Assembly (NCBI GenBank): GCA_900314575.1
Contig: OMVS01000009.1
Location: 1 to 47,614 of the forward strand
DNA from: an uncultured Olsenella sp.
GTDB taxonomy: Bacteria; Actinomycetota; Coriobacteriia; Coriobacteriales; Atopobiaceae
Length of the DNA: 47,614 nt
Direction: 5' to 3'
The position numbers were made by a program, and so were the translations under genes. The notes below the pieces were generated by a model, which worked only from the letters and a program-made list of their open reading frames with translations, did not search any database and was not told the DNA's origin. Below, piece by piece: positions 31,733 to 41,759 of the stretch (the first letter of the stretch is position 1; each line of letters begins with the position of its first letter).

Positions 31733-32472
31733 TGCCCAAGCTCGAGAAGAGAGCCGGGTCCCTGCTCTACGTGCAGGTCTCCGACTACGTCCGCGAGAAG
31801 ATCTACTCCAAGGAGTGGGGGGTCGACGCGCCCATCCCCTCCGAGCACGAGCTCATGAGCATGCTGGGGCTCTCGCGCGGCACGGTGCAGAAGGGCATCC
31901 GCAAGCTGGTCGACGAGGGGCTCCTCGTGCAGCAGCGCGGCCGCGGCACCTTCGTCACGCAGCCGCTGATCGCGCGGCCCAGCTCCAACCGGCTGCTCTC
32001 CTTCGCCGAGTCCATGAGCGCCCAGGGCATAGAGTTCGAGACTCGCGTCGTGGAGGAGCGCGTGGAGCGGGCCAACCTCGCCTGCGCGGAGAACCTGGGG
32101 ATCGAGGAGGGGGAGGACTACCTCTACCTCGCGCGCGTCCGCTACGCCTACCGTCACCCGGTGATGTTCATCGAGAGCCACCTCAACCTGCGCGCCTGCC
32201 CCGGCATCGAGGACGCGGACTTCTCGCGCGAGGGGCTGTTCGCGGCGGCGGAGCGCACGAGCGGGCAGGCCATCGGCAGGAGCGAGATGGTCTACAGCGC
32301 CCGCACGGCGGGCAAGCGCCGCGGCCAGTGGCTCGAGTGCGACGAGGGGGCGCCGGTGCTCGACCTCGACCAGCTCGTGCGCCTCGCCGACGGCACGCCC
32401 TTCGAGTGGGGCAGCGTCTGGCTGCCGGCCAACCGCTGCGTCATCTCCAACGAGACCGTGCGCGAGGGGTAG
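31729..32472 (+). CDS. GntR/HutC-family regulator with UTRA domain
   Basis: 247 residues. Winged helix about 8-78 (LYVQVSDYVREKIYSKEW, LGLSRGTVQKGIRKLVDEGLL, RGRGTFVTQPL), then a UTRA effector domain (YLYLARVRYAYRHPVMFIESHLNL, LDLDQLVRLADGTPFEWGSVWLP). The ATG at 31729 overlaps the previous stop (ATGA); ATG 31732 is an equally possible start. It probably controls its own operon through the palindromes at 30669-30696. The effector is unknown. Confidence 0.88.
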   Translation: MMPKLEKRAGSLLYVQVSDYVREKIYSKEWGVDAPIPSEHELMSMLGLSRGTVQKGIRKLVDEGLLVQQRGRGTFVTQPLIARPSSNRLLSFAESMSAQGIEFETRVVEERVERANLACAENLGIEEGEDYLYLARVRYAYRHPVMFIESHLNLRACPGIEDADFSREGLFAAAERTSGQAIGRSEMVYSARTAGKRRGQWLECDEGAPVLDLDQLVRLADGTPFEWGSVWLPANRCVISNETVREG

Positions 32473-39747: not shown

Positions 39748-39793
39748 GACGCCGTCAGGACCCGTCCTAGCTGCGGCTTGTCCTGGCGGCGTC
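39748..39793 (+). terminator. Long hairpin after the amino-acid ABC operon
   Basis: GACGCCGTCAGGAC (39748-39761) pairs with GTCCTGGCGGCGTC (39780-39793), one G/T position apart from perfect. No T-run follows. Confidence 0.6.
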
Positions 39794-39829
39794 AGAAGCC
39801 CTCATCGCGCCGATAGAATTCTTCTTGCA

Positions 39830-39873
39830 TCTGACATATCTTGTGGTAAAAAGTGAACGTCGGATATCTCAGA
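39830..39873. promoter_or_regulatory. Inverted repeat upstream of the HTH-glycosidase gene
   Basis: TCTGACATATC (39830-39840) and GATATCTCAGA (39863-39873) are inverted copies with one mismatch. The centres are 33 bp apart, about three helical turns. It ends 15 nt before the ATG and spans the likely promoter (TTGCAT at 39826 and A/T-rich TAAAAA near 39848). It is a good candidate operator for the gene's own HTH domain. Confidence 0.5.
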
Positions 39874-39888
39874 CGTAAGGAGAAGCAC

Positions 39889-41574
39889 ATGGCGAAGGAG
39901 AACACCATCGGCTCCATGCAGCGGATCGGCGGGAGCCTCAAGGCCTGGCGCGCCATCTCGGGCATGACGGCGGATGAGCTTGCGGGTGACGTGGGTGTCT
40001 CGCGCGACACCATCTCCCGCGTCGAGCGCGGGGACGCCTCGGTGAGCGTGGGCACGGTGCTCGACGTCTGCGACGGGTTCGGCCTGCTGCACCGTCTCGA
40101 GGAGGCGGTCGACCCCAGCAGGAGCGAGGTGGGCAAGATCGGCCTCTCCCGCGGGGTCCCCAAGCGGGTGCGCAAGCCGCGCGCTCCGCAGGAGCAGCCC
40201 TGGCTCACGGCCGACAACTGGTACGACGGCTGCTTCATGTACCAGATCTACCCGCTCGGCCTCACCGGCGCGCCCTGGAGGAACGACGGGTCCGACGAGG
40301 GCGCCACCAACCACGACGAGCACCGCCTGCTCAAGCTCGTAGACGACGGCTGGGTGGAGCACGTGCGCCGGCTCGGCGCCAACTGCGTGATGCTGAACCC
40401 CGTCTTCGAGAGCGACGCGCACGGCTACGACACGCGCGACTACACCAAGGTAGACGCGCGCCTGGGCACCAACGAAGACCTGCGGGCCGTGGTCGGCGCC
40501 TTCCACGAGGCGGGCGTCCGCGTGATCCTCGACGCGGTCTTCAACCATGTGGGCAGGGGCTTCTGGGCCTTCCAGGACGTCCTCGAGAAGCGCCAGCAGA
40601 GCCGCTACGCCGGCTGGTTCAACATAGACTGGGGTGCCGACGACGAGTACGGCGACGGCTTCGGCTACGAGACCTGGGCGGGCGTGCCCTACCTCGTGAA
40701 GCTCAACCACCAAAACCTCGAGCTCAACGCCTATCTCGCCGACGTGGTGCGCGGCTGGGAGGCGGACTTCGACGTCGACGGCCTGCGTCTCGACGTGGCC
40801 TACTGCCTCGACCTCGGCTTCCTCGGCTACCTGCGCAGCGTCGCCAACGAGCTGACGGACAAGCGCAAGGAGAAGTTCGTCCTCGTCGGGGAGACCATGT
40901 TCGGCGACTACAACCGCTGGATGAACGACAACGCCTGCGACTCCGTCTACAACTACGAGGCCTACAAGGGCCTGTGGAGCTCGATGAACTCCGCCAACAT
41001 GCACGAGATCGCCTACGCCCTGGAGCGCCAGAGCGGAGACAAGCCCTGGGACCTCTACACGGGCAGGCACCTGCTCGACTTCGTGGACAACCACGACGTG
41101 CCGAGGATCGCGACGCAGCTCTCCGACAAGCGCCAGCTGCGCCCGCTCTACGGCCTGCTCTTCGGCATGTGCGGCGTCCCGTGCGTCTACTACGGCAGCG
41201 AGTGGGGCATCGAGGGGGAGCAGCGCTTCGGCGACCACGAGCTCAGGCCCGCCCTCGACGCCCCCGAGTGGAACGACCTCACTGAGTGGATCTCAGCCCT
41301 GGCCGACGCGCGCCTGGCGAGCGAGGGTGCCGAGGCCCTCTGCGAGGGAGACTACCACGAGCTGCTCTGCCAGCCCCAGCAGCTGGTGTTCCAGCGCGCG
41401 GCGGGGGGCCGTCGCGTCATCGTTGCGGTGAACGCCGCCCCCGAGCCCGTCACCCTGCACTTCGACGCCGGCTGCGGCAGGGCCGTCGACCTCATTGACG
41501 GCTCGGACCACGACTTCGGCGCGGGCTCGGAGCTGGGCGCGTTCTCGTGCGCCTACTGGCTCTGCGAGCGCTAG
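39889..41574 (+). CDS. XRE-type helix-turn-helix fused to a GH13 alpha-amylase-family enzyme
   Basis: 561 residues. Residues about 8-65 are an XRE/HipB-like HTH (LKAWRAISGMTADELAGDVG, VSRDTISRVERGD, VGTVLDVCDGFGLL), followed by a basic linker (VPKRVRKPR). From about 105 a GH13 catalytic domain follows: GCFMYQIYPLGLTGAP, ANCVMLNPVFESDAHGYD, VILDAVFNHVGRGFWAFQDV, DGLRLDVAYCLD (nucleophile Asp302), LVGETMFGDYN (Glu335), FVDNHDVPRI (Asp403), and a short C-terminal beta domain. All three catalytic acids are kept, so it should hydrolyse alpha-glucosidic bonds of maltodextrin or cyclodextrin inside the cell. There is no signal peptide. The ATG at 39889 follows TAAGGAG; the in-frame GTG at 39853 lies inside the inverted repeat region. 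Confidence 0.85.
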   Translation: MAKENTIGSMQRIGGSLKAWRAISGMTADELAGDVGVSRDTISRVERGDASVSVGTVLDVCDGFGLLHRLEEAVDPSRSEVGKIGLSRGVPKRVRKPRAPQEQPWLTADNWYDGCFMYQIYPLGLTGAPWRNDGSDEGATNHDEHRLLKLVDDGWVEHVRRLGANCVMLNPVFESDAHGYDTRDYTKVDARLGTNEDLRAVVGAFHEAGVRVILDAVFNHVGRGFWAFQDVLEKRQQSRYAGWFNIDWGADDEYGDGFGYETWAGVPYLVKLNHQNLELNAYLADVVRGWEADFDVDGLRLDVAYCLDLGFLGYLRSVANELTDKRKEKFVLVGETMFGDYNRWMNDNACDSVYNYEAYKGLWSSMNSANMHEIAYALERQSGDKPWDLYTGRHLLDFVDNHDVPRIATQLSDKRQLRPLYGLLFGMCGVPCVYYGSEWGIEGEQRFGDHELRPALDAPEWNDLTEWISALADARLASEGAEALCEGDYHELLCQPQQLVFQRAAGGRRVIVAVNAAPEPVTLHFDAGCGRAVDLIDGSDHDFGAGSELGAFSCAYWLCER

Positions 41575-41639
41575 CGGGGCCCTCGCCGGCCTCGCGGCGA
41601 GAAGGACCGGTCGAGAAGGACCGGCCCTCGAGGGGGGGG

Positions 41640-41670
41640 AGGGGCGCCCGGGCAGAGCCCGGGCGCCCCT
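41640..41670. terminator. Perfect 14-bp hairpin between the glycosidase and pyk
   Basis: AGGGGCGCCCGGGC, loop AGA, then its exact complement ending at 41670, followed by CCTGTTT. It lies between convergent genes and probably stops transcription on both strands. Confidence 0.7.
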
Positions 41671-41759
41671 CCTGTTTCGTGCGCGCGACGCGCGCGTCCT
41701 TATCGGTCCCGCCTGCCCGGCTGGAGGCTCGTCTCCTGCCGGACAGGTGGCCTCGGCCC

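Follow-up and report, generated by a model that had tools for sequence, protein, structure and literature searches.

A gene of an uncultured Olsenella sp. encodes, in a single chain, a DNA-binding domain whose sequence points to descent from HipB, the antitoxin of the hipBA toxin-antitoxin system, and a glycoside hydrolase of family GH13 with its catalytic residues in place. We consider it probable that this is an autoregulated enzyme, in which a captured hipB came together with its own operators and the fusion protein represses its own promoter in the manner of HipB. The gene occupies positions 39889-41574 on the forward strand of the window, that is, of the whole stretch of 47,614 nt that was analysed. 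The preliminary description had suggested that such a protein could sense its substrate and control transcription directly; as to the second part, conserved candidate operators in its own promoter make it likely that the fusion controls its own transcription.

The open reading frame is intact from the ATG at 39889 to a stop codon ending at 41574, encodes 561 amino acids plus the stop, and has full-length relatives. A search of the protein against Pfam identified HTH_31 at residues 13-68 (E-value 1e-10), HTH_3 at 17-65 (1e-7) and Alpha-amylase at 157-445 (2e-41), so that a DNA-binding domain and a predicted intact enzyme domain share one polypeptide, as in trigger enzymes. Direct reading of the sequence placed a Shine-Dalgarno element, AAGGAG, 6 nt 5' of the ATG (39877-39882, forward strand). 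An XRE-type (XRE/Cro) HTH in frame with a GH13 enzyme, a junction free of frameshifts and stops, and a ribosome site ahead of the HTH had all been proposed beforehand, and each of these features stands. Homologues without the HTH, together with reads showing an assembly join, had been named as evidence that would speak against the fusion. Most of the distant homologues indeed have no HTH, whereas it is present in 12 close ones, which implies a lineage-specific domain gain and not an artefact; an assembly join is ruled out by independently assembled genomes that encode the full-length fusion at 75-82% identity.

The genes on the upstream side, SBP_bac_3, BPD_transp_1 and ABC_tran by Pfam, belong to an amino-acid-type ABC transporter; downstream of the fusion gene, in convergent orientation, is a pyruvate kinase gene. 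Just 3' of the transporter ATPase gene, a 14-nt inverted repeat at 39748-39793 (GACGCCGTCAGGAC / GTCCTGGCGGCGTC) is probably the terminator of that gene, setting it apart from the fusion gene. A GC-rich inverted repeat at 41635-41675 (ggggcgcccgggc...gcccgggcgcccc), between the convergent fusion and pyruvate kinase genes, is plausibly a terminator common to both.

The enzyme domain spans residues 110-561 (40216-41571, forward strand) and comprises a TIM barrel and a C-terminal beta domain, as indicated by Pfam, phmmer and Foldseek. The phmmer and Foldseek matches of this part were neopullulanase, maltogenic amylase and CMM hydrolase, with cyclomaltodextrinase also among the nearest solved structures, and it is best described as a putative enzyme of the neopullulanase/cyclomaltodextrinase type. 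The claim that all GH13 catalytic acids are present was confirmed: the nucleophile D302 (RLDVA; 40792-40794), the acid/base E335 (GETMF; 40891-40893) and the transition-state stabiliser D403 (NHD; 41095-41097), all on the forward strand, are invariant among 21 homologues and match the corresponding regions in alignments with the Thermus maltogenic amylase 1SMA and the Arthrobacter CMM hydrolase 5ZXG. The Alpha-amylase domain and this Asp/Glu/Asp triad place the protein in the GH13 alpha-amylase family and predict that the fusion is enzymatically active, as a hydrolase or transglycosylase of alpha-glucans such as starch fragments. With neopullulanase (1J0H), 1SMA and 5ZXG it shares the barrel, the triad and a KLN motif, at about 25% identity over the fold; unlike enzymes of the neopullulanase type, it has no N-terminal accessory domain, and the HTH stands there instead.

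The HipB-like module covers residues 1-97 (39889-40179, forward strand) and consists of the HTH (13-68) with the recognition segment SRDTISRVE at 38-46, followed by a HipB tail (73-97) ending in PKRVRK. The HTH_31 and HTH_3 scores exceed the Pfam cut-offs, in agreement with the single Cro/XRE-type HTH of HipB. Searches with the HTH yielded standalone proteins of about 100 amino acids in many Coriobacteriia, at 33-51% identity, and in 19 of 27 loci such a relative is followed by a HipA gene, often 0-20 nt away (for L111, L112 and L114, Pfam matches bear out the HipA identity). Aligned HipB proteins are 31-43% identical to the fusion module, which keeps both the HipB C-terminal tail, DP....G.......P(K/Q)RVR, and the SRDTxSR segment; these features argue that the HTH is specifically HipB-derived and not a generic XRE domain. 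An AF2 model of the isolated domain showed five helices, and its best fold matches included PDB HipB entries (9u9g, 4pu7, 8ezt, 3dnv); as these had weak E-values and were mixed with other XRE proteins, the assignment to HipB is drawn from sequence and not from fold. The full-length AF2 model had weak confidence at the HipB tail and linker (80-99) and at about 391-452. HipB is encoded with the HipA kinase, which it neutralises; no hipA adjoins the fusion gene in the window, and none was found in the window genome (96% complete) or in three other fused genomes (G001, G013 and G033), while G002 and G017, also fused, contain HipA. With HipA missing from four of the six fused genomes checked, those steps of the HipB mechanism that depend on HipA cannot be transferred to the fusion as they stand.

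Fusions were found in 13 genomes, the window genome and 12 others, all of them Atopobiaceae and carried by gut and rumen bacteria. Full-length fusions are encoded at L001-L007 and L011, and a class-wide search added G262, G336, G353 and G261, the last with a diverged HTH; several of the G genomes represent the same contigs as L loci, and 13 is the deduplicated count. A tree of the GH13 genes groups the fused ones in one clade (SH-aLRT 95), in which L087/G030 is the only member without the fusion. Over 70 orthologues that are not fused begin exactly at the junction. In the rest of the Atopobiaceae the orthologues mostly begin with an ATG there (M-N/S-W-Y/F) and have no HTH, and in the unfused genomes no HTH match adjoins the GH13 gene, so that there is no separate upstream HTH gene. 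An insert after NDGS is common to all fused proteins, including the diverged one, and is also present in G030. Together, the single clade, its one unfused member and the common insert are most parsimoniously explained by one gain and one secondary loss. A search of 396 sampled genomes of the phylum gave no match spanning both domains outside the family, although fusions with unrelated HTH families would escape it.

Two members of the clade serve as natural controls. In G261 (L166; G261:C1:1051000-1056500), the fused HTH is diverged, a Q/E/P-rich linker replaces the HipB tail and no operator was detectable; its DNA specificity or its function may have changed. G030 starts at the junction ATG and has neither HTH nor operators. 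These patterns indicate that the HipB module and its DNA site are kept or lost together. G030 shares its genus with G336 and G353, and also their GntR-type gene upstream of the GH13 gene. In the window, a gene for a GntR-type regulator at 31747-32463 is 77% identical to the one beside the GH13 gene in these three genomes; it is probably the older regulator of the GH13 locus, now about 7 kb upstream.

At the junction, 10 of the 13 fusions read DWR-x-x-M, with GGAGG or GGAGA shortly 5' of the ATG, corresponding to a Shine-Dalgarno element and the ancestral start codon; in L169, an eleventh case, the ATG remains but the ribosome site is weaker. Of these 11 fusions, 10 use AGG or AGA for the junction Arg, when AGR accounts for only about 6-23% of the Arg codons in these genes, a bias that suggests selection for a ribosome site and thus the possible production of HTH-free enzyme. 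The internal start of those 10 fusions could therefore yield the enzyme without the HTH as well, with which G030 is consistent. In the window, the linker (residues 98-109; 40180-40215, forward strand) reads QPWLTAD, and the ancestral start codon has disappeared along with its ribosome site; the junction start is also lost in G261, which implies that in these two the enzyme can be made only with the HTH.

An 18-bp palindrome (approximately CGTCnGATATaTCnGACG) is present two or three times in the promoter of each of the 12 fusions with a HipB-like HTH; the copies are usually 30-31 bp apart, a spacing that recurs between O1 and O2 in 10 fused genes. In the window, the candidate operator O1 (CATCTGACATATCTTGTG; 39828-39845, forward strand; leave-one-out PWM score 13.7) is the upstream copy, with a weaker 3' half, and sits between -35- and -10-like boxes placed by eye across genomes. 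Just downstream, O2 (CGTCGGATATCTCAGACG; 39858-39875, forward strand; score 22.0) is a near-perfect palindrome. A strict sigma-70 scan reported no promoter in the operator region of the window. All of the nine first-found fusions have an operator pair upstream, with leave-one-out sums of 19-46 against maxima of 11-20 in dinucleotide shuffles; the closest margin was that of L005 (21.7 versus 19.5), which had been left out of the training of the PWM. Single sites reached at best 7.8 in 96 unfused upstream regions (some loci being counted twice) and 13-25 in the fused ones. The shuffles and the unfused regions show that the palindromes are not due to chance. Among held-out fusions, G262 has a pair at 31 bp scoring 28.5 (null maximum 16.1), and G336 and G353 (upstream regions L170 and L171) have three tandem copies with 19-bp spacing.

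The same operator pair, with a spacing of 30 and a sum of 43.0, precedes the canonical hipBA operon of G054 (L114), a member of another family; other hipBA loci have weaker pairs, often at 31 bp, many of them inside the shuffle range. We propose that the operators came along with the HipB HTH from hipBA. Within the fused set the mean identity is 0.68 for the operators, 0.30-0.43 for neighbouring bases and 0.50 for the -35-like box, and since operators and flanks are compared within the same genomes, relatedness is controlled for. As the fused genomes are related, inheritance from the hipB promoter that was captured could still account in part for the persistence of the candidate operators. A wider regulon was discarded: by pattern search, the 2.1-Mb window genome matches GTCNGAWATNTCNGAC exactly at O2 alone, and the next best match, with one mismatch on contig 73, falls within long open frames. 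Extra matches in the other fused genomes looked sporadic when 12 loci were spot-checked, with no second recurrent target.

Pairwise dN/dS ranged from 0.06 to 0.37 for the HTH, from 0.02 to 0.36 for the tail and from 0.06 to 0.19 for the GH13 domain, with the linker under loose constraint in the same comparison; the HTH is under purifying selection and is not decaying. The history that we favour is one in which a hipB antitoxin gene, with its promoter and paired operators, would have landed before a cytoplasmic, neopullulanase/cyclomaltodextrinase-like GH13 gene in the ancestor of one Atopobiaceae clade and been joined to it in frame. HipB itself binds operators in its own promoter and represses together with HipA (PMC3920265; PMC8262856). 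By analogy, we infer that the HipB part of the fusion probably dimerises and probably binds the two 18-bp palindromes 30-31 bp apart, and that this binding would repress transcription of the fusion gene as HipB-HipA does at hipBA, with the GH13 domain as a bulky C-terminal partner in the place of HipA.

Such a repressor might in addition respond to a ligand. One sensing step would be added to the autoregulation proposed above: a glucan, maltodextrin or other, bound in the GH13 site would shift the geometry of the HTH dimer and free the operators, so that the substrate induces the enzyme. We regard this as possible but rather doubtful, and an effect of maltodextrin occupancy on DNA binding as a conjecture. 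The intact, invariant catalytic residues are in its favour, as is a GntR-type gene next to that of the GH13 enzyme in several fused and unfused relatives, which would be in keeping with a gene that has to be controlled; an allosteric path, however, finds no support in a linker that is variable and of low confidence in the model, and pattern scans of the window genome and of other fused genomes found no second recurrent operator target. A precedent for a bifunctional regulator exists in BzdR chimeras joining an XRE HTH to shikimate kinase; of these, just the one without catalytic activity answered the inducer in vivo (PMC3602430). More tentatively still, antitoxin and operator may have been exapted as a one-step sensor-repressor, in which the catalytic GH13 domain takes the bridging position of HipA on the two operators, substrate or its turnover controls release, and most relatives obtain enzyme free of the repressor part through internal initiation.

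Other explanations give the HTH no regulatory role. It might be mainly a dimerisation or assembly module for the GH13 domain, replacing the N-terminal dimerising domain of maltogenic amylases, with DNA binding being vestigial. Dimerisation is reported to affect substrate affinity in one maltogenic amylase (PMC3777949), and the unfused orthologues start directly at the barrel without any N-terminal domain; even so, the joint conservation of the SRDTxSR segment and the operators, and the retention by 10 of the 13 fusions of a site for HTH-free enzyme, make this improbable. We deem it more unlikely still that the HTH is a neutral passenger, a remnant of hipB captured as a promoter donation and devoid of a present role. 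That hipA is missing in the window genome and in three more with the fusion would agree with a remnant, as would G030, which lost the HTH and kept the enzyme, but the retention of the HTH in 13 genomes, the strong purifying selection that acts on it and on the tail (dN/dS 0.02-0.37) and operators conserved above their flanks all speak for a function. The preferred reading is that the fusion represses its own promoter.

Enzyme-regulator fusions are known, and enzymes are thought to turn into regulators by capturing DNA-binding domains; to our knowledge, natural intermediates with apparently intact catalysis have rarely been caught. Here the hipB donor and the operator captured from it can be set beside unfused ancestors, a case of natural loss (G030) and a variant that is diverging (G261), all in a single bacterial family. 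For toxin-antitoxin parts, this suggests a fate beyond addiction or persistence, as a portable promoter-plus-repressor cassette. The fusion resembles HipB in its HTH fold, recognition segment, P(K/Q)RVR tail and paired palindromic candidate operators in its own promoter, which match those of the G054 hipBA operon; it differs in the attached enzyme and in the frequent lack of HipA, and the E. coli HipB consensus, TATCCN8GGATA, differs in sequence from its palindrome. Like the transcriptional regulator BzdR, it combines an XRE-type HTH, a linker and an enzyme fold; in BzdR, however, the shikimate-kinase-like domain is no longer catalytic and has come to sense benzoyl-CoA, whereas the GH13 domain has kept all catalytic residues. 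The trigger enzymes PutA and NadR, whose ligand coupling is known, unite a metabolic enzyme and a DNA-binding repressor in one chain, as predicted for the fusion, with catalytic families other than GH13. No HTH-glycosidase fusion of this kind was found in the open-access literature, and the new elements with respect to these systems are that the donor is a toxin-antitoxin antitoxin, that its operator was captured with it and that the partner belongs to GH13.
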